A DNA stretch of 64,000 bases from Platerodrilus igneus (taxonomy: Eukaryota > Arthropoda > Insecta > Coleoptera > Lycidae): contig JARFIW010000453.1 of the NCBI GenBank assembly GCA_036346225.1, positions 3,968,001-4,032,000 on the forward strand, read 5' to 3'. Of this stretch, positions 1,433-62,964 are shown piece after piece. How positions within the stretch are numbered: position 1 is the stretch's first letter; each line of letters starts with the position of its first letter. The notes beneath the pieces were generated by a model. The model was not told where the DNA came from, ran no database searches, and saw only the letters and a list, made by a program, of their open reading frames with translations. A program made the translations under genes and the position numbers.

Positions 1433-3270
1433 CTGTGATAAGGGGTTGCTTAAGGGTGCACGTTATAGTAAAGGTCGTTCGGGAAGGAGTAATTAGAATA
1501 GGCAGCAGAAAAACCACACTTATTTAAGGAAATAATTAAGAAATAGACATAGTTTGTAGATAGTAAGTAGTCAACACCCTGTATATAAAGTAGAAATAGT
1601 TTTTGGGCGACGCAGGTAAACATAGGAAGACGCATAGTTGGCGTAGGAATGAGAAGTACATGTATTAAGTAGATAGTAAATATTAAATACCCTGTAGATA
1701 AAGTTTAGTTAGTTTAGGTAAAACAAATAAGGATATTTTTCAGTGGAGGCACGCGTATATTGGGAAATGAATGATAAAGTGTAATTAGACACGCATTAAG
1801 AAGAAGAGTTCCAGACGATTAAATTAATACGGATATAGAAATAGAGCTTCAGGTAGCTAATATAAATGCGTACAAAGATTTAACCATTTTGATAAAAGAA
1901 ATGATTAAAAATTGTGTGAATCGCATGTAAACATGGAAATTTAAAGTCAGATTGCATCAGTTGTTTATAGAAAAGCAAGTAATCTATCAAAATACAGCAT
2001 GTTGATAATAAAAGACAGCTGCGGGCAGGTTGTGATTATGGGAAAGCGTGGAGCATTGCATCAGAAACTGCTGTAAATAAAATTATTTGATTGGTCAGAG
2101 ACAAGCGACGAGTTCTAGAACAAACCCACGGATGGAGTGGGAATTCGAGATTATATTAGCAAGCACCTTGATAAGAAAGTCAGTTTTGAACTCAATGAAG
2201 GCCGAAGTGCATAGCCATTAAACAAAGTATTACGTAATAAGTATAAAAGTGAAAAATAAAATGAGTGCAAATATGAAGATTACAATTACCGTTTAAACGT
2301 AAGTACGTTTTTAATGAATTTATTGTAAACTAAGACATAAAAATAATAGGGTTTCGAGGTCTGAGGGAAATAGACTAGGATTCTGATGTTAAGAAAAAAA
2401 TACAGTAATGCGATTTAAATGTCAAGGGAAAAAGAAGAATAATACAATCTTGAAGTACAGGGATGAAACAAACTACAATTTTAAGTCTGGGGCAAGAATG
2501 ATAAAAGTCTAAGTTTGAAGAATTGAAATAAATTGGGGTATATAATTTAATGGTGGTGGTCCATAGTGTAATAATTTGAATGGAATCCAGAATTGGGGAA
2601 GATCATTTTTATTCGAAGCGTCGATGTGAAAAAGATAAAACCAGGTCAGATTTTTAGTTATAAGACATTTGTTTTTCTATATGAATTTTTATTTTATTTT
2701 TAATATTGAATTTGCTAAATATGATATGCTTGTGAAGAAGTCAACAAAAGAGGTTGCATACGTATTGAATGAGTAATAAGAAAACAGGTTTAGAATATTC
2801 TACATTTTGTTGGTAAAGATAATAAATTTTCTTTGGTGACTTTGGGTTTTTGAGTACATACTAGATGGTTGTTAATAAATGAAATTTATAAGAAATGTAT
2901 TACAAATAATTTCAAAAGCTGTACATAACATATTGATTTCATTATATAGAATCTAAATTTACTGAATTTTATAATTGCAAATAAATGCTAGCCGAGGTCA
3001 TAAGATTTAAATAGTACAAAGGCGGAGCCACAAGTTGAATAGAAAAGTGATAACCCGCAAGGCGGTAACGTATCGAATTTTGCCATTGGTAGATAGAGTT
3101 GTTTAAAGATAAAGTCCAGTTGATAGCAACATTAAGAAAACAGCTGGAGGAAGAGATAACTACACTTAATCGTGAATATTAAAATGGTGGTCCAATAATT
3201 TAGAATTCATAGCAAAATAAATAATGCAGCTCAACGTAGGGGCATGATAATTCTTCTAATAGCATAGCAA
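1432..3270. other. Non-coding, G-over-C biased DNA
   Basis: No gene is recognisable. The plus strand is visibly richer in G than C. A short segment is duplicated about 112 bp apart (near 1553-1600 and 1665-1712, sharing GTAGATAGTAA and ACCCTGTA.ATAAAGT). The strand bias resembles that of the untranslated leader of Gypsy-2, so an old retrotransposon leader is possible. Confidence 0.4.
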
Positions 3271-3292
3271 TATATATATATATATAATATAT
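3271..3292. repeat. (AT)n tract at the Gypsy-1 insertion site
   Basis: An AT run directly precedes the left LTR, and another directly follows the right LTR at 10175. The element therefore seems to have inserted in an AT microsatellite, which hides the target-site duplication. Confidence 0.8.
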
Positions 3293-3820
3293 TGTTGCGA
3301 GCGACTATTAGGCAACCCGTCAAACACATAAGCGCCGCAAGCACTGTATATTCTCCATGGACCGGGAAGCTTCTAGCAATTACTGGAGGATGAGTCATTC
3401 TTTTTAATTCACGGCATAATAAGACCGATGATGAAGTACAGAGTTAGTCTATATCAAAATGTCGAATGTAAATTATATCGTGTAAACTTAAATAGTTGAG
3501 CTTTTGGAAGTCCAATAATATACATAAATGTTATATTATGTGTCTAATGTACATGCAGCTTGTAGAATACATAAATAGACAAAAGTGTAATAAATAAATA
3601 GTTTTGTTAGTGTTGTTAATGGACCTATGGTTAAGAAGTCAGTTTAAGAAGATATTAGTGCTTGTAAATTCATTAGTGTGATAGTGCTTCATTGTTAATT
3701 GGACTGAAAACATCTATAAATAAGGCATATACTGTTAATTATACTTGTGAACAGTGAGTAATAAAGACTATTGTTATTACTTGTTTTAAGTTAGTGCAAC
3801 GCGGTAGTAGTAGCCCGCTA
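3293..3820 (+). repeat. Gypsy-1 left LTR
   Basis: It starts TGTTGCGAGC and ends AGCCCGCTA; the next bases CA may belong to it, giving TGT...ACA ends. AATAAA signals lie near 3588 and 3762. It matches 9646-10174 over its whole length. I could not recognise a primer-binding site in the bases after it. Confidence 0.9.
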
Positions 3821-3930: not shown

Positions 3931-5575
3931 ATGGACACAGAAATTTTAATGAATTTCCTTAAGGATATTAAATCTGGTATGCAAGAGAGGTCGGCTAAAC
4001 TAGAAGTGACACTTAGTGAAAATGCTGAGAAAATGGAGGAGAAGTCGGCTAAACTGGAAGTTACACTCAGTGAAAACTTAGTAAGGTCAGTTGAACTGGA
4101 ATCAACCCTTAAAGAGTTTAAATACGGTATGGAAGTGGCACTTAGTGAAAATGCTGAGAAAATGAAAGAAAAGTTAAGTGGAAATGCGGAGGAAATAGAA
4201 AAGTTAAGTGAAAATACAGCCACGTTACAAAGATTAATGGAAAGCTCCATTGCATTGAAAGAAGATTTCACTGAACACGTAAAAACAGTTGAGCAAAAGT
4301 TGGACAGAAAATTGGAAAAAATGGAAGAAGATGTGATGAGGCTGCAAGAACAAATGATTTCACTAACAACGGGGTCACTTGGATTAGCAAACCGAGCTGT
4401 AAATCAAAACATTCCAGAAATAAGAAGCATGGAAGGAAGCGAGTCATTACCGTCAAAATTTAAAGTGAAACCATCCACATTCGATGGTAAAACATCTTGG
4501 CCCACATATTTGAAACAATTTGAAGCTGCTGCAATAGCCAACGGTTGGTGCAACAAAGAGAAGGCTATCTCCTTAATAATAGCCTTACGGGGGGAAGCTC
4601 TTAACATCTTGCAAACTATTCCCGATCACCAACAGAATGATTACGGCCTTTTAACCTCGAAGCTTGAGATGAGATATGGAGACGCTCACCTTCAACAGCT
4701 TTACCATGCACAAGTTAAGAACCGCTCGCAAAAAACAAATGAAAGCCTGCAAGAATTCGAAGCTGACATTGCCAGATTAGTTAGAATGGCATATCCAACA
4801 GCACCAGATAGTTTCCTCGAACGACTAGCTGTTCAAACATTTGTAGATGGCGTTAAGGACAGCGAAATATAGCAAGCGCTAAGATTAGCACGGCCAAAAA
4901 TGTTAGATGACGCACTGGCTCATGCGCTTGAATTTGCAGCAGCTAATCAGACATCACACAGGATGAGTCACAAAGTTCGGTCTGCCTTAGAAGAACCTGG
5001 CGAATCGCAGAACAGCATAACAGAAATAATCAACCGTGTGGAAAAGCTTGAAATACAACGACCTTACATGTGATTTTCCAATGCTCCACCCGAAGGTACA
5101 TTGTCCAGGAAGCGAGTTTTTTTTAACCTGGAAAATTTGAAATTTTGCCGAACCCTTGCTGTTTCAAGCAAGGTAGAGATCTTTAACGTGCGTGACAACA
5201 CACACACGGGACCTCCATTTTACCTCTCATCCGAACGAGGGTGTATTTTTGTGAAAAATGCTCGCCTAACATTTTTCAAGCGGACCGTGTCGGGATTCGA
5301 TCCCGGGAGTAGTAGTCACACACATACCACTACGCCACAGAGCCGCCGAAAAACAACGACCGTGGAGATGGGGTCTACGATGCTGGAACTGCGATGAAGT
5401 TGGTCATATACAGAGACGCTGTATTCAACCAAAAAACAACCGGTTGAACAGCAGCAAAACTAGAGCAAGTCGACGTAAGGGGGCGAACGTCGACAGCACA
5501 ACGTACTGCCCCGGAGATTATCATCCGTTCTGCATCGTCGATGAGGAGTCTGAACAGCATTTATATCGATGGTAG
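3931..5575 (+). pseudogene. gag: Gypsy-1 gag, split by a SINE
   Basis: The ATG at 3931 opens a 313-codon frame. Residues about 20-110 are heptad-like and internally repetitive (LEVTLSENAEKMEEK and variants), predicting a coiled coil. Residues about 180-313 have the pattern of a retrotransposon Gag/capsid domain (FDGKTSWPTYLKQFE, LRGEALNIL, FVDGVKDSEI). A single TAG at 4870 interrupts it, and the same frame then continues to about 5060. A SINE occupies 5064-5352. Beyond it, 5381-5422 encodes a CCHC zinc knuckle, CWNCDEVGHIQRRC, and the frame stops at 5573. Gag would form the cytoplasmic particle and bind element RNA through the knuckle. The stop and the SINE disable it. Confidence 0.85.
5064..5352 (-). 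repeat. tRNA-derived SINE inserted in Gypsy-1 gag
   Basis: On the minus strand the right end reads as a tRNA-like head with A box TGGCGTAGTGG and B box GGATCGAATCC, the two internal RNA polymerase III promoter elements. A 200-bp body follows and the 3' end is GGAAAATCACATGTAA, with no poly-A. The insertion is bracketed by a 9-bp duplication, ACAACGACC, at 5055-5063 and 5353-5361. Three more copies lie in tandem at 50149-51043. The body block reading ATCTTTAACGTG and CGGGACCTCCATTTTAC on the plus strand resembles a central domain I recall from other invertebrate SINEs, but that was not searched. Confidence 0.85.
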
Positions 5576-5862
5576 AATTTTATGGTAGGGTTGTCCGATT
5601 ACTCGTGAATACAGGAGCGACAAGGACTATTGTGAAACCAGATTTGGTTGGTCGTGGGAAAGTGCTACCTGTATCGGTATGTCTTCGAACGGCAAGTGGT
5701 GAGAAAATTTCTACTCACGGAGAGACTGCCGTAACGTTGGGAATTGGAGACAAACTAATTAATCATCGGGTGTTGGTAGCTGAAATCACAGAACTGTGCT
5801 TGGGAATGGATCTCATGAGAGAATATGGGTTTCATGTGAACATGAAAGAAGATGTGCTATGA
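5569..5862 (+). pseudogene. pol: Gypsy-1 aspartic protease, active-site Asp replaced
   Basis: A 97-codon frame with the retropepsin layout: residues 11-20 read LLVNTGATRT where the family has Leu-Val-Asp-Thr-Gly-Ala, and residues near 85 read CLGMDLM, matching the C-terminal Gly-Met-Asp strand. The catalytic Asp is Asn here (codon AAT at 5608-5610), so the enzyme should be inactive. It would have cut the Gag-Pol polyprotein. It lies between the zinc knuckle of gag and the RT, as expected. The next RT frame begins after about 100 bp with stops. Confidence 0.8.
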
Positions 5863-5966
5863 ATAGATGACGACGACATGAAATAAAATGTGCTTCGGAT
5901 AGATGATGATGAGATTCCATTTCAAGGGACGAGTAACCAGACGATGCAAGTTCAAAAATCTGTGAT

Positions 5967-7710
5967 ATGAAAATACCCGAGAAGGCGGTAATGATAGTAA
6001 TGGGACGGCCGGATGGTATGCTCCGGGAAGGACAAATATGCATGATAGAAGCAACTGAATCGGGAATGGGTCAGGAGGGAAAACTGATTGGAAGAACGCT
6101 GGTAAAGTTTCGAAATATGATACCAGTAAGGGTGCTGAACATTAATCCGCATACGGTGACCCTGAAGAAAGACATGATTGTGGGAAGTTGCATTCCAGTA
6201 TACCATATCAAACGTTGTGTGGTCGACACGAAAGATAAACCAGCCAACGGTTGCTCACAGAAATTGCTGGATATGTTAATACCTTCGTGTCAAGGATTAG
6301 ACGGCGACCAACTGGTCAAGGTAAAAGAACTGGTCGGACGATATCAAGGTGTGTTTGTACTGGATGATAATGAGAAAGGAAGAACGAATGTTGTGCAACA
6401 TAAGATCAATACTGAAGATGCGCAACTGATAAGACAACACCCCAGGCGGCTTCCTTTGGCAAAACGTAAGGAAACCGAGCAAATTATCACAGATATGGTA
6501 GAAAAGGGAGTGATTGAACCCTCGAATAGTCCATGGGCATCCCCGGTAGTTCTTGTCAAGAAAAAAAAACGGGTCGACAAGATTTTGTGTAGACTACCGG
6601 CGGCTAGACATTGTGACAAAGAAAGACAGCTATCCTTTGCCCAAAATTGAAGACACCTTGGATACACTATCTGGATCTAAATGGTTTTCGACTTTGGACT
6701 TGAAAAGCGGATACTGGCAGGTAGGCTTGGAGCCAAACGATAAAGAAAAAACTGCGTTTACAATTGGAACTGGATTATGGCAGTTCAATTGATGTAGTCG
6801 GTACTGCGTGGACTGTCCTGGAAAACATGTCTGGTGTACCTAGATGACGTGATAGTGTTAGGCCGGTCTTTTGAAGAACATCTTAAGAACCTAGAGGAAA
6901 TATTACAAGATTACGCGGGGCAAACCTTACATTTAGCCCCAAGAAGTGTCATCCATTTGGAAAAGAGGTGAAATACCTAGGACATGTCGTTTTGGAGACC
7001 GGAATAAGAGCTTACCCTAACAAAATAAAAACGGTGCAAGAGTGGCCTACACCAGCAGATATACATCAACTACGCAGTTTTCTAGGATTGTGCACATATT
7101 TCCGACGTTTTATACTTGGGTTTGCGAACATTGTCAAACCGTTAACGAAATTAACCGAAGATGGACAAGAATATGTTTGGAATGACGACTGCAACAGTGC
7201 ATTTGAACAACTGAAACGGCTACTAGTTACAGCACCAATTTTGAGTTATCCACAGATGGAGGGGAAATTTGTGTTGGATACCGATGCCAGTAACACAGCT
7301 ATAGGAAGCGTTCTTTCTCAAGTGCAGGACGGACAAGAAAAAGTTATTGGGTATTTCAGCAAGGTCTTGTCGCGGCCAGAAAGGAACTATTGTGTGACAA
7401 GAAGGGAGCTGTTGGCCGTCATCAAATCCGTAGAGCACTTTTATAAATACTTATACGGCCGTAAATTCCTGTTGAGAACAGACCATGCTGCACTACAAAG
7501 GTTACTGCAGTTTCGAAATCTTGAAGTGCAAGTTGCAAGGTGGATAGAGCGGCTGCAGGAATTTGACTTTGACACAGAACATCGTGTAGGAACTAGCCAT
7601 CGGAATGCAGACCCTCTGTCAAGGAGACGTTGTCCGGTAGACTGCAATCATTGCTCCAAGATGGAAAAGAAAATAAGTGTCGTCCATAGAATGACGGTAA
7701 CCGATGATAC
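5967..7710 (+). pseudogene. pol: Gypsy-1 reverse transcriptase and RNase H, frameshifted
   Basis: Three frames cover one domain pair. 5967-6580 holds the RT start (KGVIEPSNSPWASPVVLVKK). A poly-A slip near 6561-6568 moves the frame to 6553-6792 (FCVDYRRLD, LDLKSGYWQ). The YLDD catalytic box is encoded at 6837-6848 in yet another frame. From 6968 the frame carries the RT thumb (FLGLCTYFRRFI) and RNase H, with its Asp (VLDTDASN), Glu (TRRELLAV) and Asp (RTDHAAL) residues in place, ending near 7650. RT copies element RNA into DNA and RNase H removes the template. At least three frameshifts make this copy non-functional. Confidence 0.88.
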
Positions 7711-8330
7711 GTGGCAACCCGAAAGATACGAGAAGACCAAGAGAATGACGCCGATTTGGGACGTATTATTGAGTGGAGAAGTAGAGAACAACGACCAGCT
7801 TGGGAAGAAATTAGTATTTCAAGTAAGAGCCTAAAGGCATACTGGGCACAGTGGGACTCCTTGGTGATTGAAACTAGAATCTTGAAACGACGCCTGGAAT
7901 GTGAAGATGGAACTGAGAGACTTCAAGTGATAGTGCCGAGAAGCAGAGCGCCGGAAGTGTTGCAGCACTTGCACCATAGTATTTCCGGAGGGCACTTTGG
8001 CGTGAAAAGAACTCTCGAAAGAGTGAGAGAAAGATTCTATTGGGAGAACTGCAAAGAAGATGTGAAGGAGTGGTGCCGGAAATGTGAGTTTTGTGCTTCT
8101 GAATATGGCCCGGTTACAAAACGAAAGCCCCAATGAGACAGTATAACGTGGGAATCCTTTTGAGAGGGTGGCCATTGATAGAGCTGGCCGGTTTCCCGAA
8201 TCAGAGAAAGGAAATAAATGAATCTTGGTTACAATGGATTATTTTACCAAATGGCCGGAAGCGTACGCTATACCTAACCAAGAAGCCGAGACGGTTGCAG
8301 ATGTACTAGTGAGGGAGTTGTTTTGTCGCA
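7711..8330 (+). pseudogene. pol: Gypsy-1 integrase, zinc-binding and catalytic part
   Basis: The frame 7711-8136 contains the HHCC zinc domain (HHSISGGHFG followed by CRKCEFC). Beyond a stop and frame change, 8137-8330 encodes the start of the DDE core: the first Asp in VAIDRAG and the second in HFDQGQ. About 14 residues normally found between the second Asp and the RTTPLHPQSDG segment are missing, together with a frameshift near 8355, so the core is broken. Integrase would join the cDNA to host DNA. The remainder is in the next frame, 8331-9464. Confidence 0.85.
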
Positions 8331-9464
8331 TTGGAGTTCCGTTGGAATTACACTTCGATCAAGGTCAAGATTAGAACCACGCCACTTCATCCCCAATCGG
8401 ATGGAATGGTTGAAAAAATAAACAGGACGTTAAGAAAGTACCTAGCGAAAGTTGTCTCTGAACATCAACGAGACTGGGACCAATATTTACATTTGTTCCT
8501 ACTGGCGTACCGATCTTCGGTACATGACAGCACAGGATACTCTTCCGCTTGCGTGATGTTAGGACGTGAATTGAGGCTACCATGTGATCTTCAGTTTGGG
8601 TTTAAACCTGGAGAAGATATCGCAGGTGAAGATTACGTTAGTAAGCTTCGTGAAAGATCAAATAGCATTCATGAAAACGTCCGAAAGAATATCCAGGCAG
8701 CAAGCGATCGAATGAAATCACAATATGACACGAAAGCACAAAAAGGGGGTTACCAACCTGGAGATTTAGTGTGGTTGTACAATCCACAAAGAAAACGTGG
8801 ATTGTCGCCAAAACTACAAAGACAATGGGAAGGCCCGTACGAAGTGTTAAAAAGAATTAATGATGTAGTGTACCGGATCAGAAGATCTCCCCGTGGTAAA
8901 CCGAAAGTGGTACACTTTGACCGTTTAACATCCTATGCTGGCAATAACCAGGAAGACTCGAGTAATAAAAATGCTGTTCGAAGAGTTATTAATCATGAGC
9001 CAAATGTAGATTTTGAGAGTTTCATGGCGGCGTATGGTGGTTCCGCTAAGGCGAGATTTGGCGTTGTTGTTGAAAAACAGCAAGACCTGTTTAGAGCACC
9101 AGAAGAGTATTCCCTTGCACATTGCGTAGCTCAAGAGCTGGAAATGTCCAAAGGAATGGCTGTTGTTTTCAAGAAAAAGATTAGATGTGTGGATAAATTA
9201 GTACAACAGCAGCCAACTGTAGGAAAAGCTTTGGTTCTTCAGGATAGAAATCGTTATGTTTACTATCTGGTCACCAAAAATTCTTCATGGCAGAGACCTA
9301 GTTATGGACATCTATGGGAGGCCTTGCTGAATCTTAAGGCTCAGATAATGGAAAATGGAGTAACGAGACTAGCGGTGCCCAAGCTAGGCTGTGGACTGGA
9401 TCGTTTAGATTGGAGAATAGTCCGAAATATGCTAGAAGTCATTTTCCAGGGAACCAACATCTAG
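8331..9464 (+). CDS. pol: Gypsy-1 integrase C-terminus fused to a macro domain
   Basis: An open frame of 377 codons; the first 10 or so residues are out of the original frame. From RTTPLHPQSDGMVEKINRTL it is the integrase core end, with the catalytic Glu, then the C-terminal GPY-type segment (WEGPYEVLKRI). Residues about 243-377 (9057-9464) form a macro domain of the TARG1/OARD1 subgroup: QDLFRAPEEYSLAHCVAQEL, GMAVVFKKK, YYLVTK and PKLGCGLDRLDW. In that subgroup a Lys and an Asp drive removal of ADP-ribose from acidic residues; both positions are kept here, Lys at codon 9276-9278 and Asp at 9399-9401. The fused frame is intact, so the domain was carried by the element at insertion. Its role in the element is unknown; countering host ADP-ribosylation is only an inference. 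Confidence 0.85.
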   Translation: MEFRWNYTSIKVKIRTTPLHPQSDGMVEKINRTLRKYLAKVVSEHQRDWDQYLHLFLLAYRSSVHDSTGYSSACVMLGRELRLPCDLQFGFKPGEDIAGEDYVSKLRERSNSIHENVRKNIQAASDRMKSQYDTKAQKGGYQPGDLVWLYNPQRKRGLSPKLQRQWEGPYEVLKRINDVVYRIRRSPRGKPKVVHFDRLTSYAGNNQEDSSNKNAVRRVINHEPNVDFESFMAAYGGSAKARFGVVVEKQQDLFRAPEEYSLAHCVAQELEMSKGMAVVFKKKIRCVDKLVQQQPTVGKALVLQDRNRYVYYLVTKNSSWQRPSYGHLWEALLNLKAQIMENGVTRLAVPKLGCGLDRLDWRIVRNMLEVIFQGTNI

Positions 9465-9633
9465 GTCCTTGTTTGTTGATATCATCCGGTTGTAAACCTA
9501 GACTAAGAAAAGAGTGTTGACTGTTATTTCCAACGACGTGGTGGATGCACCAGAGGCGATAGCTGCCGATACTGTCATCAGTCATCGAATTGGCGTCAAA
9601 ATGTATTTACAGTTACGAGACGTAACAGTTTTA

Positions 9634-9645
9634 AAGAGGGGGCAG
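9634..9645 (+). other. Gypsy-1 polypurine tract
   Basis: AAAGAGGGGG followed by CAG lies immediately upstream of the right LTR, the position and composition expected for the plus-strand DNA primer. Confidence 0.75.
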
Positions 9646-10171
9646 TGTTGCGAGCTACTATTAGGCAACCAGTCAAGCACATAAGCGCCGCAATCACTGT
9701 ATATTCTCCATGGACCGGGAAGCTTCTAGCAATTACTGGAGGATGAGTCATCCTTTTTAATTCACGGCATAAATAAGACCGATGATGAAGTACAGAGTTA
9801 GTCTATATCAGAATGTCGAATGTAAATTATATCGTGTAATGTTAAATAGTTGAGCTTTTGGAAGTCCAAGAGTATACATAAATGTTATATTATGTGTCTA
9901 ATGTACATGCAGCTTGTAGACTTCATAAATATACAAAAGTGTAATAAATAAATAGTTTTGTTAGTGTTGTTAATGGACCTATGGTTAAGAATTTAGTTTA
10001 AAAAGATATTAGTGCTTGTAAATTCATTAGTGTGATAGTGCTTCATTGTTAATTGGACTGAAAACATCTATAAATAAGGCATATACTGTTAATTAGACTT
10101 GCGAACAGTGAGTAATAAAGACTCTTGTTATTACTTGTTTTAAGTTATTGAAACGCGGTAGTAGTAGCCCG

Positions 10172-10174
<3 letters not shown>
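9646..10174 (+). repeat. Gypsy-1 right LTR
   Basis: It matches the left LTR from TGTTGCGAGC to AGCCCGCTA with about 20 substitutions and a one-base indel. An AT microsatellite follows directly. Confidence 0.9.

Positions 10175-10219
<45 letters not shown>
10175..10219. repeat. (AT)n microsatellite
   Basis: A pure AT run next to the right LTR of Gypsy-1. Confidence 0.95.
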
Positions 10220-12050: not shown

Positions 12051-12295
12051 TAGGGGAGGGCGATACGGGATTTTGCGTATCGAATATCGATACATATTCT
12101 ATATCGATATGTATCGATATATCGAATATCGATATATATCGATACGTATCGATACGTATCGATGCGTATCGATACGTATCGATGCGTATCGGTGCGTATT
12201 GATACATATCGATTCGTATCGATACGTATCGATGCGTATCGGTGCGTATCGATACGTATCGATTCGTATCGATGCATATCGATACGTAGCGGTAC

Positions 12296-12335
<40 letters not shown>

Positions 12336-12788
12336 CGATTCGTATCGGAACGTTTAGATGTGTAGATTAAGTATACATATCGAGACGTAGCGATACCTAT
12401 CAGTACGAATCGATACGCATCTATAAATTTTTCTACTCTTTATTTGGGAATAAAATCACAAGATCGTTTTAAAATAATGTATTTACTGACAATTCGATCT
12501 TTCACTTAAGATTGTTTGTTATCAAAATAATTAAAGTTTCAAGTTTAATATTTGTGACATGTATATAGGGTGTGCGATACGAATTTTGCGTATCGAATAT
12601 CGATACATATTCTATATCGAATATCGATACGTATCGATACATATCGATGCGTATCGATACATATCGATACGTATCGATACGTATCGATACATATCGAGTA
12701 TCGATATATCGATATTAATTTTTTGCTGTATCGGGGGGGTCGATACGGGGGTCATATCGATACGTATCGATACGCCGACCCAGCCCTA
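12051..12788. mobile_element. Nested hAT-like MITE made of TATCGATACG satellite
   Basis: Ends TAGGGGAGGGCG on the left and, on the opposite strand, TAGGGCTGGG on the right form a terminal inverted repeat. An 8-bp duplication, ACAATTAT, flanks it at 12043-12050 and 12789-12796. Most of the interior is a degenerate array of GTATCGATAC units with variants (GATGCG, GATTCG), plus a (TA)n run at 12299-12334. A second, near-identical left end (TAGGGTGTGCGATACG) starts at about 12566, so the element is either two nested units or a partial tandem duplication. The periodic frames (RYVSIRIDTYR) crossing it are repeat artefacts. Confidence 0.8.
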
Positions 12789-12827: not shown

Positions 12828-14500
12828 ATGGCTAAATCACTGTCGAAGAAAAACTCTATAGTGATGACTATATTAAATACGGGTTTACATTTATTGAGAA
12901 AAACGGTAGTCATTTACCTCAATGCCACCTGGACGTTTGGAACGCCATTTGACTACAAATCATGCTGCCCTGAAGGACAAACCTACAAAATTTGTTGTTT
13001 CTAAGAAAAGTTGCCTTAAGCGAATGAAACTTGATTCCAGTGGAAGTTTTTCAATGGAAAATGAAAAGGCCGTTGAGGTTTCTGACAAAATTGCCTTGTT
13101 GATAGCTAAAGACAAGAAACCCCACACAATCGGTGAAGACAGCTACAATAAAGTTACCAAAATTGCTTTATCAAACGACACTGTCAAACGTAGAATTGAT
13201 GACATGGCTATTGATTTGAAAAATCAATTGGTAGTAAAGCTAAAGAATTTCCCATTCTGTGCATTGCAGTGCGATGAAACAACAGACATTTCAAAACAAG
13301 CGCAGTTGTTGTTTTACTGTAGATATATAGATATAGATGAAAAGAAATTCCTTGAAGAAATACTATTTTCAAAAAAAATCTTGAAACAACAACTACACCA
13401 GGCGATACATTTTCCGCTCTTCAAACATTTTTAGAAGCTAATGATCTTCCCTGGGAGAGAGTTATTCGAATATGTACTGATAGAGCTCAAGCGATGATAG
13501 GATGTCGATCAGGATTTATTGAATTGGCTAAGAAAAAGAACCATAAAATAATTGGATTACATTGTATCATCCACAGACAAGCTTTGGCTTGCCAGACTCG
13601 CCCTGAATCACTCAACAATGCTTTGAACTTAGCAGTTAAAGTAGTTAATCATGTCAAATCCAGTGCGTTGAGTGTGTGTCAAGAACTGAACAGTGATCAA
13701 GAAACACTTTTCTTTCACGCCGAAGTCCGTTGGTTGTCCTAAGGTAATATGCTTGCAAGATTGTTCAACTTAAAATCAGAAGTTAAAATTTTTTTGATGA
13801 GTTCAAATGAAGAACTGTACAAGAAATTTACAGATGACAAATTTATCTTCTACTTGGCATATTTCTCAGACTTTTTCGAAACAATCAATCTTCTGAACCT
13901 AAAACTACAAGGTCAGAAGAGTACTTTGAAGAACTATGATTTAATTAAAAGTTTTGCTAGAAGATGGCTCTTTGACAACGCAGCCGTCGCCTTCAGAATT
14001 CGGAGCTAAACTTTTCTTCCTATTCAAACTTAAACAACCTCCTCGATGATACCCAAAGTCTTCCAAAGGACCTGATAAATGAAATGAAGGAGCTCATATC
14101 TGAGCATTTGGTATCAATGAAGAACAAAATCGGAGTCTATTTCCCAGATATAAGCTCAGACAACTGGGAATTCAAGTTAACAAGAGGCCCCTTTAAAATC
14201 AATGTTGATATACTTCCTAATCATATTCAAGAACAAACAATTGACTTGCAATGTGATTCTAAAGCTAAAGTGGATTTTCCAAACGTGGATCTCAAAGACT
14301 TCTGGCTCCTATATCTTCCAGTTTACCCAGAAGTAGCAATGGAAGCAGTGAAGTTGCTTGTACAATTTTCATCAACTTATCTATACGAGTCAGGATTTTC
14401 AGCCTTCGCTAATATAAAATTTAAATATCAAGTCAGACTAGATGTGGAAATTGACCTGTGGTGTTCTTTGTCAAAATTGCAACTAAACATACAAAAATAG
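12828..14500 (+). pseudogene. hAT transposase, ZBED5-like, broken
   Basis: Collinear pieces give one transposase. Near 12850-12920 lie codons of a BED zinc finger start (YSDDYIKYGFTF), then a deletion with frameshift. The frame 12922-13434 has the finger end (GRLERHLTTNH) and the first part of the RNase H-like core with a conserved Asp (LQCDETTDISKQAQLL). After a frameshift, 13494-13742 has CIIHRQALA and ends HAEVRWLS at a TAA; the same frame resumes with GNMLARLFNLKSEV at 13749. The last part, 14084-14500, has the C-terminal hAT dimerisation motif (STYLYESGFSAFANIKFKYQ). At least one deletion, several frameshifts and one stop disable it. The family cuts and pastes DNA through terminal inverted repeats. 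Confidence 0.88.
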
Positions 14501-50148: not shown

Positions 50149-50430
50149 CCTACATTTGATTTTCCAGAAGGTACTACATTGTCCAGGAAGCGAGTTTTTT
50201 TACCTGGAAATTTTGAATTTTGTCAAATCCTTGCTGTTGCATGCAAGGTAAGGATCTTTAAGGTGCGCGACAACACTCACACAGACCTCCATTTTACCTC
50301 TCATCCGAAGGAGGGCGTATTTTTGTGACAAATGCTCGCCTAACATTCTTCAAGCGGACCGTGTCGAGATTTGAACCCGAGACGTTGGGCATAATAGTTA
50401 CACGCACACCAACTACACCACGGAGCCCCC
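50149..50430 (-). repeat. SINE, tandem copy 1
   Basis: Same family as 5064-5352: plus-strand left end TACATTTGATTTTCCAGAAGG, right end with the inverted tRNA head (CCGTGTCGAGATTTGAACCC ... CACCACGGAGCC). The B box here is changed (GGTTCAAATCTC). Target sequence CCCCCTTCACATATCC precedes it. Confidence 0.85.
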
Positions 50431-50437
50431 CTCCCAC

Positions 50438-50738
50438 CCTACATTTGATTTTCCAATGCTCCACCCGAAGGTACTAAATTGGCCAGGAAGCGAGTTTTTT
50501 TACCTGGAAAATTTGAAGTTTTTCCAAACCCTTGCTGTTCCAAGCAAGGTAGGGATCCTTAACGTGCATGACAATACTAACACACGGGACCTAAATTTTA
50601 CTTCTCATCCGAAGGACGGTGTTTTTTTATGAAAAATGCTCGCCTAACATTTTTCAAGCGGATCGTGTCGGGAGTTGAATTCGGGACCTTGGGCATAGTA
50701 GTCACACGCATACCAACTACACCACGGAGCCGCCCCCT
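50438..50738 (-). repeat. SINE, tandem copy 2
   Basis: A full-length unit from ACATTTGATTTTCCAATGC to CCACGGAGCCG in the same orientation. It is separated from copy 1 by about 7 bp and from copy 3 by CCCCCTCTCACATACC, which resembles the host target sequence. Confidence 0.85.
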
Positions 50739-50747
50739 CTCACATAC

Positions 50748-51043
50748 CTTACATGTGATTTTCCAATGCTCCACCCGAAGGTACTACATTGGTCAGGAAG
50801 CGAGTTTTTTTTACCTAAAAAATTTGCAATTTTGGCGAACTCTTGCTGTTCCAAGCAAGGTAGGGATCTTTAACGTGTGTGACGACACTTACACACGGGA
50901 CCTCCATTTTACCCCTCATCCGAACGAAGGTGTATTTTTGTGAAAAATGCTCGCCTACATTTTTCAAGCGGACCGTGTCGGGACTCGAACCCGAGACCTT
51001 GGGCGTATTAGTCACACACAAATCACTACGCCACGGAGCCTCC
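50748..51043 (-). repeat. SINE, tandem copy 3
   Basis: Best-preserved head: on the minus strand the A box is TGGCGTAGTGATT and the B box GGTTCGAGTCC, a perfect polymerase III match. CCCCCTTCACATACC follows at about 51044-51058, repeating the sequence left of copy 1 (50134-50150), so the whole trio shares one target duplication. Confidence 0.87.
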
Positions 51044-52759: not shown

Positions 52760-54059
52760 GGAAAGTTAAAATGGTCGCCTTGGAAAGCAAACAACGGAGA
52801 TTATTTCGAATTTATTTAGTATAAAGACGTGTTTTAATAGTACTGCGCTAATTTGTATAAAGATTTAAAAGTTAATAAATGTGTTTGATTTTGGAAATGG
52901 TTTTAATTGGTTAAAGAAAGGTAAAAGAGTAGCAGCGAGACATTAATAAGTGATAGCGACGTAAAAGAAGTGGAAAGATTTTCAATAGTGCGACGGCGAA
53001 GCAACGATAAATGAATTAGATTTGAAACGATATATGGTAACGGCAGTAGGCATCAGAGTGGAATAAAAAGCAGGACGAATATTGGGGATAGATTTGGATA
53101 GAGATTAATAGGTAGCAGGACATCGAGTGGTTAACAAAAAAGGACGACGATTGATTTGGATTTATTGATTACGGGCATTGAGTGATTTTGTACAAGACGG
53201 CGATTAGATTTGGATTGGATAATAAAAGGCGGACGGATTAATTGGGAACACAAGGAGCGGAACTAGGAGAGCGGCAGTTACAAGTAGAAGAATTAGCGCA
53301 GGGGAAGTAACACAATCGGTTTTTTCCAAATTCTAAATTAGGGTTAATAATTTCAGGTATTGGGGAGCAGACAAAATTAAAGGACGACACCTGGAAGCGG
53401 TACTAAAATTAAATCAGTAGGACATCAGTGTAAAGACGCATACGGTGACAAGGATTTTGAGCCAGCAGTTAGAGCGGCCAAGAACGGAGTATAGACCAGG
53501 TGAGTGCTGATATACCTTAAAACGTCAAAAAATAGTCATATAATTTGGTAGTAATTTAATTTGGCACAAAGCGACTTTGATCGTAGTATAATTTTGGCAT
53601 ACAGAAAAGTAGAGTAAAAATTTTGTACTAAAACAAAAGAGTGTGCACGTTGGTTGGGCTTTGCACATCTACTTATAACAGAACTCACTATAAGTAGTTT
53701 GAACACCCTGAGATTTAAGAGCTTAAATAGTCGAGGCATTGAAATAAATAATTAATTAAAGAACCAACCAAACGTTGCAAGTCCGGGGCGTGCATTAGGT
53801 GTGCACATTGCATAAAAAAAGGCGCGACAAAAAAGGGGTAAAATCAAATAAAATTTTATAGAATAAAGAGAGTGATTACATAGTAAAGTAGTAAAGTAAA
53901 AGAGAGATTTAATAGGTGGCAAACCCAATGTGGGGCTGAAAAAAGGCTAGATCGAGTGAAATTAGACAGAAATAGTAGTAGGATACGGGATCCTGAGATT
54001 AGGTGGGGCTCGTAGTTTAGATATTTTCAGGCAAAGGAGTTCAAAAACAGGCTGCAGGG
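52760..54059 (+). other. Gypsy-2 untranslated leader
   Basis: 1.3 kb rich in G and A with no frame, between the LTR and the gag start. Leaders of this kind carry packaging signals, which I cannot locate. Confidence 0.6.
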
Positions 54060-56306
54060 ATGACGGACGCGGACATATTACGACTCATAATGAGTTTAAA
54101 AGACGATATTAAGACTTCACACACGGAACTAATGAACCTATTTGACGGATGGCGGACAGAGATTAAGACGACACGCACGGAACTAAAAACGGGTTTGACT
54201 GACACAATTACAGAGTCACACACGGAACTACAAACGGACCTAACAGACAAAACTGAACAGTCGCGGACAGATGTAAAGACATCACACACGGAAAAACAAA
54301 CGGAGTTAACAGACCAGATTGCAGAAACACACACGGAACTACAAACGGACCTAACAGACAAAACCGAACAGTCGCGGGCAGATGTAAAGACATCACACAC
54401 GGAAAAACAAACGGAGTTAACAGACCAGATTGCAGAAACACACACGGAACTACAAACGGACCTAAAAGACAAAATCGAAGAGTCGCGGACAAAGGACGAA
54501 TGCAGGACGGAGATACAAGACAACAGACGACATGCGTACCACGAACAGCGACACAACCACAGACAGGACAATTTCAATCACGAACATCGACCCAACTACC
54601 GACAGGACTATTTTAACCACGGACACCGAAATCACTGGAGACACGACGGAAACAGACGACCATACTACAATAGGGAACACCGGGGGAACGACGTACAAGG
54701 ACAAAATAGGTACCAGCACGACGACAACGCGGATGACGGCCGGACGACGGGAGGCGGAACACAGCACGGATATAGCCGGACGGACAGGGACGCTAACGTC
54801 CACCACATGACAACTAGCGCAAGGACTCAAGACACGGATAAAATTGAAGTGGTGCAGATACACGAGGCACCCTCAGGAGAAAAAAAAAACGCCAATTTTT
54901 GGAAGAATGAATGTTTAGGATTAAAGATCGACGTAGGTTATAGTTTAAAAGACTTATTGTTAAATAATTATAATTTGAATAAAAAGAACCTTTTGTTTAT
55001 TAATATTAGTTTAAGGGATTGTTTATATGTTGCTTTAGTTGATAGTGGTTCACAGTTGTCGCTGGTTGACGAGAAGGTGGTGGTAAAACATGCTGATTTT
55101 TTAAAAGAAAGAATAGAAGCGATTGATGGGGTTAATTTATGGTCGGCAGTGAATAAAAAGTTAACTACGATTGATAGGATCATCCGTGTACCGATATTTG
55201 TAGGGGATAAAAAGGCAGGAGTGGCAGAATTTTTAATTAAAAAGGGGTTGCAGATAGATTTCATATTAGGAATGGATTTTATAGAGGATTTTGGATTGAA
55301 TATAGATGGTAAGGATAGGTCGATTCGAATAATTGATAAAGATAAGTTATGGATGGTGTCTACGGTTAGTGAGGAAAATAGGAATGGAGATAATATAGAT
55401 AAGTCGGGATTAGGAATGGATAGGACAAGTGATTATAGACAGGTTCAAGTACGATTATGTAATATGTTTGCGAGATTAATTAATGATGAACAGATTGGAA
55501 AAGTGAGTATTGAGATAAAGGCGAAGCTAGGAGAATTATTTCATAAATATATAGGGTTATTTAATGAAGAACCAAGATTAGCGAGGCGATATGTGCATAA
55601 GTTAGAAGTCACGGAAGACAACGGTTTTAATACAAAGGTGTATCCAATTCCGTTTGCTATTAGAAATAGGGTTAAAGCCGAGATTAACAAGATGTTACGA
55701 GAAGGAATAATAGAACCAGCGAAAACTCCATATGTGAACCCGGTAGTTATCGTACCTAAACCCAACAAAAGGGATATTAGAATTTGTTTGGATGCGAGGA
55801 AGTTAAATTTGATTACGAAGCCGCAGTATGAACAACCACAAGGGTTAGATAATTTGTTGTATAAAGTATATGAGATGAAGATTTTCAGTAAATTAGATTT
55901 AAAAAATTCATTTTGGTTAATTCCGTTGCATGAAGACAGTAAGAAGTTTACAGGGTTTAGCATTGAAGGGGAGATTTACATGTTTTCTGTAGTTCCGTTT
56001 GGGTTAAGTAGTTCTTCAGCAGCACTTGTAAGGGCCATGCAGAAGCTGTTTAACGAGTCTGAATGTTTCTGTTCGCACTATGTAGATGATTTGTTGATTT
56101 TTTCAAGGAACGAGCAAGAACACCTGGAGCATTTAGAAAAGGTGATCCAGAGGCTGGACGAAGGGGGTTTGAAGTTGAACGTGGAGAAATGCGAGTTGTT
56201 TAAGAACAAAGTTACGTATTTAGGGTTTGAAATCAGTGAACATGGGATGAAAATTTGCAATAAAAGGTTGGACGAGTTGAAAATATTGCTCAACCAAAGA
56301 ATGTGA
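54060..56306 (+). CDS. gag-pol: Gypsy-2 Gag-protease-reverse transcriptase polyprotein
   Basis: The ATG at 54060 opens 748 codons without interruption. Residues 1-145 are a coiled-coil-like segment made of 37-residue repeats (TELQTDLTDKTEQSR, TSHTEKQTELTDQIAETH). Residues about 150-255 are rich in His, Arg, Asn and Asp (HRHNHRQDNFNHEHRPNY), probably nucleic-acid binding, and no CCHC knuckle is present. The protease active site VDSGS has its Asp at residue 328, with ILGMDFI later. RT follows: GIIEPAKTPYVNPVVIV, LDLKNSFW near 612, PFGLSSSSA and the YVDD box at residues 674-677. Gag and RT share one frame, so no frameshift signal is needed. The frame ends at a TGA at 56304 in the RT thumb, where sequence similarity continues in another frame. 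Confidence 0.9.
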   Translation: MTDADILRLIMSLKDDIKTSHTELMNLFDGWRTEIKTTRTELKTGLTDTITESHTELQTDLTDKTEQSRTDVKTSHTEKQTELTDQIAETHTELQTDLTDKTEQSRADVKTSHTEKQTELTDQIAETHTELQTDLKDKIEESRTKDECRTEIQDNRRHAYHEQRHNHRQDNFNHEHRPNYRQDYFNHGHRNHWRHDGNRRPYYNREHRGNDVQGQNRYQHDDNADDGRTTGGGTQHGYSRTDRDANVHHMTTSARTQDTDKIEVVQIHEAPSGEKKNANFWKNECLGLKIDVGYSLKDLLLNNYNLNKKNLLFINISLRDCLYVALVDSGSQLSLVDEKVVVKHADFLKERIEAIDGVNLWSAVNKKLTTIDRIIRVPIFVGDKKAGVAEFLIKKGLQIDFILGMDFIEDFGLNIDGKDRSIRIIDKDKLWMVSTVSEENRNGDNIDKSGLGMDRTSDYRQVQVRLCNMFARLINDEQIGKVSIEIKAKLGELFHKYIGLFNEEPRLARRYVHKLEVTEDNGFNTKVYPIPFAIRNRVKAEINKMLREGIIEPAKTPYVNPVVIVPKPNKRDIRICLDARKLNLITKPQYEQPQGLDNLLYKVYEMKIFSKLDLKNSFWLIPLHEDSKKFTGFSIEGEIYMFSVVPFGLSSSSAALVRAMQKLFNESECFCSHYVDDLLIFSRNEQEHLEHLEKVIQRLDEGGLKLNVEKCELFKNKVTYLGFEISEHGMKICNKRLDELKILLNQRM
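54221..54480 (+). repeat. 111-bp coding tandem repeat in Gypsy-2 gag
   Basis: Units start at 54221, 54332 and 54443, each with CACGGAACTACAAACGGACC. The period of 111 bp is 37 codons, so copy number can change without breaking the frame. The first two units are nearly identical and the third is partial. Confidence 0.9.
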
Positions 56307-56880
56307 GAGGATTGCGAGGATTTTAGGGTTCTAAATTATTATAAACGGTTTATACCGCGATATTCCGAGTTGTGTGTGCCATTGGTGAGTTTATTGAAGA
56401 AAATGAAAGATGGAAATGGACTGCTGATCGAGAGAAGGCGTTCCAGGATTTAAAAGTGCGTTTTATAACGAGTTGTCATTAAAATATCCCAATTTCAAAG
56501 ACGAATTTATTTTAAGAACGGATGCGTCGAAATATGCGATAGGGGCTGAGTTGGTGCAGATACAGGATGGAGCTGAGGTACTAATTGTATTCATTTCGAG
56601 GGTATTAAAGACTGCGAAACGAGATATGCGACAGCAGAGAAGGAGATGTTGGCGATAGTATATGCAGTGAAAAAGTTGCGTTTTATCTACTAGGTAACAA
56701 ATTTTAATAGAATCCGACAACACGGTGGTAACATTTATGAAGAAAAAGGAGTTTCTAAACAGCAGGTTGTACAGATGGGCGTTAGTATTACAGGAATACG
56801 ATTTCGAAATCAAGCACAAACCAGGAAGGGAGAATGTGACGGCGGATTTTCTAAGCAGACCGCAGGTGGAAGCGAATAAA
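56307..56880 (+). pseudogene. pol: Gypsy-2 RT thumb and RNase H, frameshifted
   Basis: 56300-56470 encodes RGFLGFLNYYKRFIPRYSEL-like codons in two frames. 56473-56658 gives the RNase H start with FILRTDASKYAIGAELVQIQ, then the frame is lost at a small deletion near 56615. A third frame has EKEMLAIVYAVKKL, and 56725 onward has the end (YRWALVLQEYDFEIKHKPG, then ADFLSRPQ). The Asp and Glu catalytic residues are still visible. Three or more indels in this short segment stand out against the intact upstream frame. Confidence 0.8.
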
Positions 56881-58130
56881 GACATGAAGGATCGTTTAGT
56901 AGCTGTGCAGGAGTTCAGGGATGTTGGTCGGTGGACAAATGCCAAGCTTATGGAGACGCAGAGGCATAGTGAGGTGAGCTCGATCCGCGAGAGATTAACA
57001 AGCGAAAATGTGGAGGAGTACCGGGGATTTACCATCGTAGGGCAGTTTGTGGTCAAAAGGATAGGTGATGCAGAGCTGGTAGTGGTATCCAGAGAAGCGG
57101 CTGTGGAAATTATAGATGAAATTCATTTAAATTTTGGTCATATAGGCATAAGAAAAACATTTTTGGTATTCAGGGAGGCGTTTTATGCACGTAACGATAT
57201 CACGGTGGTCAAAGAAAGGATTAATCGGTGTAAAATTTGTATATTAGGGAAAGACAAGAACGTGGTGTTGCAGAAGTACCGATGAGTGTGAACGTGAGCG
57301 GACCGTTGGAATTGGTAGCTATTGATTACTTAAGCAACCTGATTACGAGTGAACAGGGGTATAGGCACATATTAGTAATGGTGGACGTTTTTTCAAAATT
57401 TGTTAAATTATTTCCGGCAAGGCGAAGTAACACGGTGCATGCATTACAGTCGATTAAAGAATTTGGAAGCCAGGTCGGGAGAATGGAAAGGATTTTGGTA
57501 GACAACGCAACTTATTTTAACAACCAAAGATTTAGGAACGGGTTAAATCGAGCGCACATTAAGGTGTCATTTAGCAGTATACGGCATCCGAAAGCAAATC
57601 CATGCGAACGATATATACGGGAGGTAATAAAATATCTACGGTTAGCGACGCAAGAGCACCATAATAGATGGGTTAGATATCTGCCGCAGATAGAAAATTT
57701 CATGAATGGTGTACCGAGTTCAGTTACGAAAACGTGTCCGGTAACATTGATTCGAAGGATTATACCAGCTAGGCCATGGAGGGAAGAAGTTGAAGTACAA
57801 GACATCACAGAGTTGTTGGGTAGTGTTAGACATAGGATCGAAAGGATGCAGCGTAGGGATATCGAGCGAAGATGTAGCAGGATCAAAAAAAGGACGACTT
57901 TTGAAATAGGGGATTTGGTGGTTGTAAAAAGGTTGAGAGTTTCGAACCGCGACAGGAACATTTGCGCGAAGTTGTTATTTCCTTATGAAGGGCCGTACAA
58001 GATCACGCGTATTTTTGCGGAAGGAAATACATTTGAATTAGCTAATATGACAGGGGAATATCGTGGGCGTTTTCATTTGGAAAATCTATACCCATATAAA
58101 GTTGTACAGGAAGAGGGTTTAGTAGAATAG
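56725..58130 (+). pseudogene. pol: Gypsy-2 integrase, one frameshift
   Basis: The frame 56725-57285 ends with the HHCC zinc domain (HLNFGHIGIRKTF, then CKICILGKDKN at about 57232-57260). A frameshift near 57255-57270 joins it to the frame 57237-58130 with the DDE core: Asp in LVAIDYLS, Asp in ILVDNATYF, Glu in KANPCERYIRE. The C-terminus has LFPYEGPYKITRIF and FHLENLYPYK, a GPY/chromo-like end without a chromodomain. It stops at 58128. Integrase would insert the cDNA; a single frameshift is the main visible defect. Confidence 0.85.
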
Positions 58131-61140: not shown

Positions 61141-61415
61141 TTTGACAGTTAGATTTGTTGGTTTGCTTTTGATAAAGGATTGGTCGTAACGCTAATCCCA
61201 ATACAGTCAATTAATTAATCTGGCCAAATTTACTTTTGACTTTAATTTTTTTTGACCCCTTAAATTTTTTTTGATATTGTTTTGGCAAAAATAATTTTAC
61301 CAAAAACTTTTTTTTTGTGATTTTTACCTTTAGCAGTACGAATTTGTTTTGATAACTTTTATAAGATTCGGATCAGTTAGATTTATCGGTTTGATTCCAT
61401 TAAGCTGTTGTAATC

Positions 61416-62790
61416 ATGTCGGAAAAATTCCAAATTGTTTGTCTACTTAAAGAAGAATTGGAGTATGAACTAAGAATTAGAGGAGTGTTGAGTGAGAGGC
61501 CAGTGTTGGAGAAAAGGAAAATTTTAGGTAGATTGTTAGCTAAAGAAATAGATAAGCCTGGTTGTTTGATAGATCTTTCGTGTTATGAAGTAGATTTTGC
61601 AACGGAAAGTAAAGAAATTTCAGTTTCAGTCGAGTCAATTCGTAATGTTGTGTCTGAATTTGAAGGCGACTCATCAGACTCAATTTTTAGAAGAGCTTGT
61701 TCAAGGTTAAACCACCTTTCAGGGCGAGTTAAGCGCATGAAAATTCCTTCAATAAATTCAGATGAAGCAAGTAAGTTCAGAAATGAGACAGTAGCAACGA
61801 TATTAACTCTTGAAGCTGACTTATACGATAAAATCAATAAAAGTACAGAGTCCACCCATTTGGATCGGTCCGTTGTAGTATCTCCTTCAGTTGCTAGTGC
61901 ACCTATTCATTCGACTTCGTATATAACACCTTCAGTACCTATAGGTTCATGGCCTGTAAAATTCTCAGGTGACCCCAAACAACTACATTCATTTTTGATA
62001 GAGTTAGTGATTTAGCACAATCACGTAAGGTATCCGAAGCTGATTTATTTGGATCAGCATGTGAACTTTTTGTGGGTGACGCTTTGGTTTGGTTTAGAAC
62101 AGTGAAAAATTCCTTGAGAGACTGGAACTCCTTGTTAGAACGTTTAAGAGAAGATTTCCTACCTGGTTCTTCAGATGATGACATTTGGGAAAAGATCAGA
62201 AATCGTCGTCAAGGTAAAGACGAAAAATTATTTTATTTGTCGCACATATGCAAACCCTCTTTAGTAGACTGACCAACGAGCCAGCTGAAGTTACTAAAGT
62301 TAAGATGATAAAAGAAATTTGGTTCCTGAATATATTTCAGCACTTGCATTGTCGGACATTCAAGATTTGTCTACCTTAGTAAATTTGTGTAAGAGGTTAG
62401 AAGAGGCTTCTTTGATGAAACTAAATTTGGTTTCAGCATCTTCTAGTAAACCTAACAAGAATAGCTACCCCTCTAAACATCCATTTGAGAACAAACATCT
62501 TGGGTTGAATGAAAAGTTTGTGCTGTTAGGAGTAGAGTGTTTCAGAATAAATTAGTTAATCCTCACGTAACAGTACCGGATAAGAGCTCTTTGAGTCCTC
62601 AGTTTGTAATTCCTCTAGTCCCGATAAAAGGAATCATTTTGTTTGTTGGAATTGCTCCCGTAGTGGACATTGGTTTAGAGATTGTAGAGCAGCTAAAAAA
62701 TTTTTGTTTTGGATGTGGTCGAAAAGGCGTTAAGGCAACGTCATGTCCACAATGTTCAAAAACCAGTAAGGCGGCAGGTACATAGTGGTC
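61416..62790 (+). pseudogene. gag: Gypsy-3 gag, frameshifted
   Basis: The ATG at 61416 gives 199 codons (SEKFQIVCLLKEELEYELRI, GRLLAKEIDKPG) ending in WPVKFSGDPKQLHSFLIEL, the start of the capsid-like domain. Overlapping frames carry it on: 62072-62272 (DALVWFRTVKNSLRDWNSLL, LREDFLPGSS) and 62319-62555 (YISALALSDIQDLSTLVNLC). At 62644-62685 a CCHC knuckle reads CWNCSRSGHWFRDC, followed by a second Cys cluster (CFGCGRKGVKATSCPQC) near 62707-62755. Four or so frameshifts. The protein would package element RNA. Confidence 0.8.
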
Positions 62791-62964
62791 GGTATCCTGT
62801 TACGCGTCATAAGGCTACGGTTATGATTTGTAAACAAGAAAAATATTTTGTAAAGACGAGTGGTCGAGATGGCTTACAGTTGTTAAAAATTTTGTCAGGA
62901 CTCTCCGAAGCCTAAGAATAATACTCTGTTTATTGAGAAGCAGTGTGATAATCGACCTTATATT

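Follow-up and report, generated by a model that had tools for sequence, protein, structure and literature searches.

The window, a stretch of 64,000 nucleotides from the lycid beetle Platerodrilus igneus, contains an LTR retrotransposon copy in which the coding sequence of the integrase continues in frame into a macro domain. The features of this copy are as follows:

3293–3820, + strand: 5' LTR, with TG start and (TA)n upstream; 95.8% identity to 9646–10174
3931–4872, + strand: gag-like ORF with short internal repeats; gag suggested by position
5554–5862, + strand: protease (Pfam gag-asp_proteas, 4.3e-07)
5937–6792, + strand: reverse transcriptase split across two frames (ORFs 5937–6650 and 6550–6792), by eye
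6887–7834, + strand: RNase H region (Pfam RT_RNaseH_2, 2.6e-34)
7708–8136, + strand: integrase H2C2 zinc-binding domain (Pfam Integrase_H2C2, 1.6e-20)
8313–9056, + strand: end of integrase core, C-terminal SH3/p58 domain, and linker (Integrase_p58_C, 4.2e-14; SH3_Tf2-1, 3.7e-07)
9057–9461, + strand: TARG1/OARD1-type macro domain in frame with the integrase (Pfam Macro, PDB match to human TARG1, predicted fold)
9276–9278, + strand: putative catalytic Lys codon (YYLVTK), aligned with the human TARG1 Lys
9399–9401, + strand: putative catalytic Asp codon (GCGLD), in line with the acidic dyad residue of human TARG1
9462–9464, + strand: premature stop of the window copy; relatives and other copies stay open here
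9477–9479 and 9504–9506, + strand: two more in-frame stops, read from the sequence
9522–9578, + strand: CCCH zinc finger remnant, a pattern in the frame of the macro domain
9633–9645, + strand: polypurine tract, read from the sequence; translated in copies with an open frame
9646–10174, + strand: 3' LTR, 95.8% identity to the 5' LTR; (TA)n downstream

The domain order along the window (protease, RNase H, and integrase by Pfam, with the reverse transcriptase placed by eye between the first two) and the presence of an LTR pair and a polypurine tract identify the element as a member of the Ty3/Gypsy group; in a related protein (P0047) Pfam recovered RVT_1, RNase H, H2C2, rve, and the integrase C-terminus in this order. 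Pfam matches of the gag-like ORF were weak and all below cut-off, and the canonical TGG start of a primer binding site was not recognised after position 3820 in a reading by eye. The copy is decayed, with pol spread over several frames and the integrase core not contained in one open frame (8136–8313). A single open frame of 383 codons on the forward strand (8313–9464) holds the macro domain; the integrase C-terminal models of Pfam match its residues 150–206, and no Pfam match to a chromodomain was obtained in it up to an E value of 0.1. Since the two LTRs enclose the macro domain, it is located inside the element. TA repeats border the element on either side (3269–3292 and 10175–10218), which suggests insertion into a TA microsatellite.

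Elsewhere in the window, three consecutive stretches at 50175–51040 share 86–89% identity with an internal stretch of the element (about 5061–5347 of the window), and two more sets of retroelement-like ORFs with the look of protease, reverse transcriptase, and integrase by eye occupy 54021–58130 and 61404–63969. Two blocks of decamer arrays of the TATCGATACG type lie at 12087–12731, and the broken ORFs at 12910–14500 have, by eye, the look of a hAT-type or ZBED-type transposase.

The first-pass annotation had described a macro domain with a lysine (YYLVTK) and an aspartate (GCGLD) at the end of the integrase frame and had placed it in the TARG1/OARD1 subgroup. Both statements are borne out; the roles that it proposed, countering PARP-based host defence or acting at DNA breaks in the course of integration, are conjectural. 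Within the ORF at 8313–9464 the Pfam Macro model matches residues 295–372 with 21.2 bits, just below the 22-bit cut-off, and when 9057–9461 was scanned separately the score of 23.1 bits lay above it, which rules out a profile search without any macro domain hit, the outcome named in that annotation as contrary. Human TARG1 was the PDB match of the 135 residues, with an E value of 6.5e-34 over 128 residues that excludes a chance match, and is the closest macro fold. In the alignment with human TARG1, the counterpart of human Lys84 is present in the window domain, and its Asp aligns with the Asp at position 125 of the human chain; available text of PMC7050489 gives Glu125 as the acid of human TARG1, whereas the human chain aligned here has Asp in that motif. 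Membership in the TARG1 subgroup is thus supported by sequence, predicted fold, and dyad. The structure model of a related Harmonia protein (P0002) had a mean pLDDT of 59.6 and was of low quality except in the macro domain and in parts of the C-terminal integrase region.

The dyad is widely conserved. Across 118 macro segments, which include the window and non-element relatives and in whose second match list nearly two thirds are from Aromia, 109 of the 110 that have a letter at the site retain Lys, and 106 of 110 retain Asp. Exceptions are a Diabrotica protein (P0076; Arg and Glu), P0101 (Glu, truncated), P0054 (Gly), and P0094 (Asn). Lys and Asp are both kept in all 28 macro-selected copies of the genome described below, the window included. 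Judged from the sequence, the domain is probably an active (ADP-ribosyl)hydrolase. In the Diabrotica member both dyad residues are replaced and the CCCH finger is retained, which indicates that catalysis is not kept everywhere.

The claim that the domain ends the frame just before the polypurine tract was correct as to the in-frame fusion, but the end is a premature stop located 168 bp before the tract, and the cargo proved larger than the macro fusion then recognised, since a CCCH finger and the run of the frame across the polypurine tract into the LTR had been missed. Beyond the stop at 9462, the same frame continues with VLVC, two further stops, and a C-x7/8-C-x5-C-x3-H pattern at 9522–9578; three relatives (P0002, P0005, and P0006) read without interruption from the macro domain through ILVC into the CCCH finger. 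Among the 28 macro-selected loci, window included, which are not a random sample because 19 of them (L009–L027) were chosen for long frames, the frame passes the polypurine tract in 23, staying open to position macro+606 nt or farther in 23 and to macro+645 or farther in 21. The 3' LTR starts 587–590 bp past the macro start in 16 of 17 LTR-paired copies and 546 bp past it in the remaining one. With the frame open past the tract and the LTR starting at this distance, the native product appears to be an integrase–macro–CCCH protein whose stop lies inside the LTR. A CCCH pattern follows the macro motif within at most 140 amino acids in 68 of the 103 relatives obtained by protein search (see below); the Pfam zf-CCCH model reaches its cut-off of 20.5 in P0002 (20.5) and P0076 (21.3) and scored lower in the other proteins scanned.

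The 2.71-Gb assembly (1,723 contigs) was searched with the macro domain, and of 11,620 first-look candidates the best 150 were scored. Among these, 144 lack a stop within the domain, and seven stop-free loci sit in open frames of more than 1,400 codons. The macro-selected set consists of L009–L027, taken for their long open frames, L002–L008 as best-scoring loci, and L028, which was added as short; owing to the choice of long frames it is biased to intact copies. Because the best 150 were ranked by protein score, copies also lean to low dN in the search piece, for which an integrase-selected set served as control. Here the query was the integrase C-terminal piece, the best 150 of 27,752 candidates were scored, and the 30 best loci, the window among them, were used. 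Of the 29 other copies, 27 carry the macro domain at the same place (L047 partially), L043 runs off its contig, and L045 is the only integrase-selected copy found without the domain; the frame is open from the integrase through the entire macro domain in 11 of the 29. The fusion is thus conserved among copies of the family, and a test of the second contrary outcome named in the first-pass annotation, absence of the domain from this position in other copies, did not refute the observation. Of 20 copies examined in separate pieces, 17 had an LTR pair, with 98.1 to 100% identity over 450–587 aligned bases; in the other three none was found within the fetched piece. These identities indicate that the family has been mobile recently, and the window copy, with LTRs of 95.8% identity, is older than the 17 LTR-paired copies.

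Purifying selection on the domain, also suggested beforehand as a check, was found in both sets. Among the 27 macro-selected copies, dN/dS was 0.16 in the macro domain (codon bootstrap 0.08–0.27), 0.12 in the integrase, 0.39 in the linker, and 0.26 in the CCCH region. The corresponding values in 26 integrase-selected copies (leaving out L029, which is the window again, L043 at a contig end, L045 without macro domain, and L047 with its macro end lost) were 0.18 (0.10–0.31) for the macro domain, 0.29 for the linker, 0.12 for the CCCH region, and 0.03 for the integrase, the latter being itself the piece selected on. Compared with these 26 copies, the window had a dN/dS of 0.23 both in the macro domain (0.11–0.48) and in the CCCH region (0.07–0.70). 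Changes in the macro domain common to at least two copies comprised 19 silent and 8 replacement changes, as against 25 silent changes, 35 replacements, and 4 stops among the private ones (Fisher p 0.011, or 0.020 without stops; both approximate, as linked changes were counted as independent). Such an excess of silent changes among the shared ones is expected if the domain is selected during replication and decays after insertion. The macro domain is almost certainly element cargo under selection.

Single-base deletions numbered 49 in the macro domain of 27 integrase-selected copies (L029, L043, and L045 excluded) and 17 in the integrase of 18 macro-selected copies taken without length choice (L165 and L174 of the 20 were too different to align); the integrase of the 27 macro-selected copies, mostly picked for long frames, had 2 single-base deletions and 2 other indels. 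Across L030–L058 and L159–L178, different copies carry such deletions at the same short runs, and their combinations form no nested pattern. An inherited frameshift subfamily that dropped the domain is disfavoured, since the deletions do not nest and deletions of the same kind occur in the integrase of length-unselected copies; for the same reasons they are read as long-read error or as repeated slippage and independent decay. Relaxed keeping of the macro domain is another reading of its denser deletions.

A first protein search yielded 9 kept relatives from 42 candidates, and a second search, for which the query was the C-terminal half of P0002 from Harmonia, yielded 103 from 622. The 95 named records among these 103 come from Aromia (n = 66), Molorchus (n = 14), Callosobruchus (n = 6), Exocentrus, Gonioctena, and Diabrotica (n = 2 each), and Harmonia, Holotrichia, and Diorhabda (n = 1 each); Pyrocoelia was found in the first protein search and Aquatica in another one. 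According to their taxonomy, the eleven species are all Coleoptera, belonging to the Cerambycidae, Chrysomelidae, Coccinellidae, Scarabaeidae, and Lampyridae. Many of the Aromia and Molorchus gene models look like spliced predictions over element copies, with unreliable upstream parts. By motif count, integrase C-terminal sequence precedes the macro motif in 85 of the 103 relatives, and element proteins from several beetles are on average 56% identical, with the dyad kept. The first search also returned proteins of Aromia, Zophobas, and Drosophila in which Pfam detected no element domains.

In a tree of 37 macro rows, 17 element rows together with P0094 and P0119 formed one clade with 100/100 support, which was separate from the vertebrate and mosquito OARD1 and the Drosophila rows and thus did not group with cellular OARD1 orthologues. 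Elsewhere the tree had little resolution, with stars on 7 of 34 inner branches, and a clade of the 17 element rows only, without P0094 and P0119, was not rejected by the AU test (p 0.279). The single element clade fits one capture of the domain by a beetle element lineage. The element domain is best called TARG1-type, as orthology to OARD1 is unsupported by this tree.

Several other proteins carry related domains. Four beetle proteins (P0007, P0008, P0105, and P0106) with a macro domain and without element domains form a clade of their own; their C-terminal part looks conserved and has no Pfam match, and the proteins are apparently not elements. P0110 is a Gypsy pol fragment and in this resembles the beetle element, but its TARG1-like macro domain (residues 97–231) follows RNase H and precedes the integrase zinc finger; it falls outside the beetle element clade on a very long branch and probably represents a separate capture. 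In P0109 and P0107, where Pfam finds Macro alone or nothing, a TARG1-like macro domain is joined to other parts that we take to resemble a non-LTR retrotransposon (a part like the C-terminus of a reverse transcriptase, and a PHD-like ORF1). Viral contigs yielded no relative with the window protein as query and 97 with the alignment, of which 80 were retained as loci (L079–L158); these 80 metagenomic relatives have 28–48% identity, and many of the contigs exceed 50 kb.

Human TARG1/OARD1 (C6orf130) and the insect OARD1/Targ proteins are cellular proteins without element domains, whereas the beetle domain forms a separate clade and lies in the C-terminal region of a retrotransposon polyprotein, together with a CCCH finger. 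Chromoviruses, which also belong to Ty3/Gypsy, carry a chromodomain fused after the integrase C-terminal domain, and the chromodomain reads histone marks; the beetle element likewise has an extra domain after the integrase C-terminus, but shows no chromodomain. The macro domain of the DarG antitoxin is part of a bacterial toxin–antitoxin pair (DarTG) and has only the Lys of the dyad (PMC7050489, excerpt). Macro-domain ORFs have also been reported from epsilon-like endogenous retroviruses of fish (Basta et al., 2009, cited in an excerpt of PMC4977317), which are likewise LTR elements with a macro domain; these are, however, vertebrate retroviruses, and the domain is described there as additional open reading frames. 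That LTR elements capture extra domains is already known: according to available text, an orchid Ty3/Gypsy element carries an m6A demethylase domain, likewise a captured eraser of a nucleic-acid modification, but is a plant element with a separate additional ORF and another chemistry (PMC9289625), and bdelloid LTR retrotransposons likewise have captured enzyme ORFs, their ORF3s being a GDSL esterase and a DEDDy exonuclease, with the word macro absent from the excerpted text (PMC5408684). Among the matches listed in the open-licence PMC literature, no macro domain was found in a Gypsy element or in any element of insects, nor was an integrase–macro–CCCH fusion.

The reading we favour, with moderate confidence, is that a Ty3/Gypsy lineage of beetles captured a TARG1/OARD1-type domain and kept it after the integrase, followed by a CCCH finger, as a hydrolase that is anchored on RNA or cDNA and erases ADP-ribose. 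The presence and the conservation of the dyad point to a hydrolase and not to a reader alone. Fingers of the CCCH type often bind RNA, and the single finger of the element is, by analogy, a putative RNA binder. The macro domain, presumably an active (ADP-ribosyl)hydrolase produced together with the integrase, would be anchored by this finger on element RNA or cDNA, where it would strip ADP-ribose placed by host ADP-ribosyltransferases on bases, on ends, or on element proteins, and its removal would let reverse transcription and integration complete. Bound to the integrase and anchored on RNA, such an eraser would work in cis, with the RNA, cDNA, or proteins of the element as its targets. Each link in this chain (that the dyad confers activity, that the finger binds RNA, and that hydrolysis benefits the element) is inferred. 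The RNA-recognising N-terminal domain of PARP12/13 includes four CCCH fingers (PMC10450202, excerpt). TARG1-type enzymes take ADP-ribose off Glu/Asp and nucleic-acid ends (PMC6582358 and PMC7050489, excerpts), and a 2026 paper reports the removal of uracil ADP-ribose by such enzymes, including Drosophila Targ1 and Targ3 (PMC13036486, excerpt). The chances that element nucleic acid, and not protein or chromatin, is the main substrate fall somewhat short of even. A narrower version, in which the integrase–TARG1–CCCH protein is an RNA/DNA-guided eraser of base-linked ADP-ribose (on uracil in RNA and thymine in cDNA) on the element's own nucleic acid, is tentative and rather doubtful.

The main rival is a chromatin role, because of the position of the domain, which is that of the chromodomain in chromoviruses, and the loss of the dyad in one Diabrotica member. 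The macro domain would then read, and perhaps edit, ADP-ribose on chromatin or at breaks and so steer or ease integration. That it directly follows the integrase C-terminal domain, that the Diabrotica member without the dyad has still retained it, and that the window copy sits in a (TA)n tract are all in line with such a role, as is the existence of readers among ALC1-like macro domains (PMC7050489, excerpt). However, nearly all other members have retained the dyad, for which a pure reader would have no use, and a single insertion site is uninformative on targeting. The attached finger is moreover of a type often binding RNA, as described for PARP12/13 in part of PMC10450202. A chromatin role is considered unlikely, if still worth weighing.

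Less probable still is an action on host proteins, in which the hydrolase would act on PARP-1 substrates, histones, or stress-granule proteins and relieve PARP-dependent repression, as proposed for viral macro domains, which reverse ADP-ribosylation (PMC6582358, excerpt). In Drosophila parp-1 mutants most misregulated mobile elements are up: five of the eight differentially expressed ones increased, and ten more, nine of them of the gypsy superfamily, were up below the authors' thresholds (PMC7712786, excerpt). The same authors allow an indirect effect, however, and a domain made within pol, together with the integrase, would suit action in cis better than action throughout the cell.

That the domain is a passenger without present benefit, carried along since loss of a polyprotein C-terminus is slow, appears very improbable. 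Many copies are broken within the macro domain, one lineage has lost the dyad, one integrase-selected copy (L045) has no domain, and single-base deletions are denser in the macro domain than in the integrase; but the macro dN/dS of 0.16–0.18 among copies and the silent excess among shared mutations largely refute it, and element proteins from several beetles, at an average identity of 56%, retain the dyad. An exon of a host gene or an assembly chimera is rejected, as had already been held when the domain was called element cargo: no evidence in favour was found, the LTRs enclose the domain, the best 150 scored places in the genome and the copies fetched by the integrase only show it many times over and at a fixed position, LTR pairs flank 17 of 20 copies, and the same fusion recurs in records of other beetles.

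The preferred reading, an eraser of ADP-ribose anchored on RNA or cDNA, suggests that ADP-ribose tags hinder these elements. For the ADP-ribosylation of nucleic acids in animals there are candidate writers and erasers, and its natural targets are unsettled (PMC13036486, excerpt); that an element family has kept a TARG1 dyad under selection in beetles of several families points to the life cycle of an element as a site of ADP-ribose harm. If the nucleic acid of the element were the substrate, insects would be defending themselves by attaching ADP-ribose to retrotransposon nucleic acid, and TARG1 domains would have been captured repeatedly, by the beetle Gypsy lineage, by P0110 (before the integrase), and possibly by the non-LTR-like P0109 and P0107. 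A probably enzymatic domain occupies the position of the chromoviral targeting domain, and the macro domain, with or without its CCCH finger, would be a ready reagent for finding the substrate.
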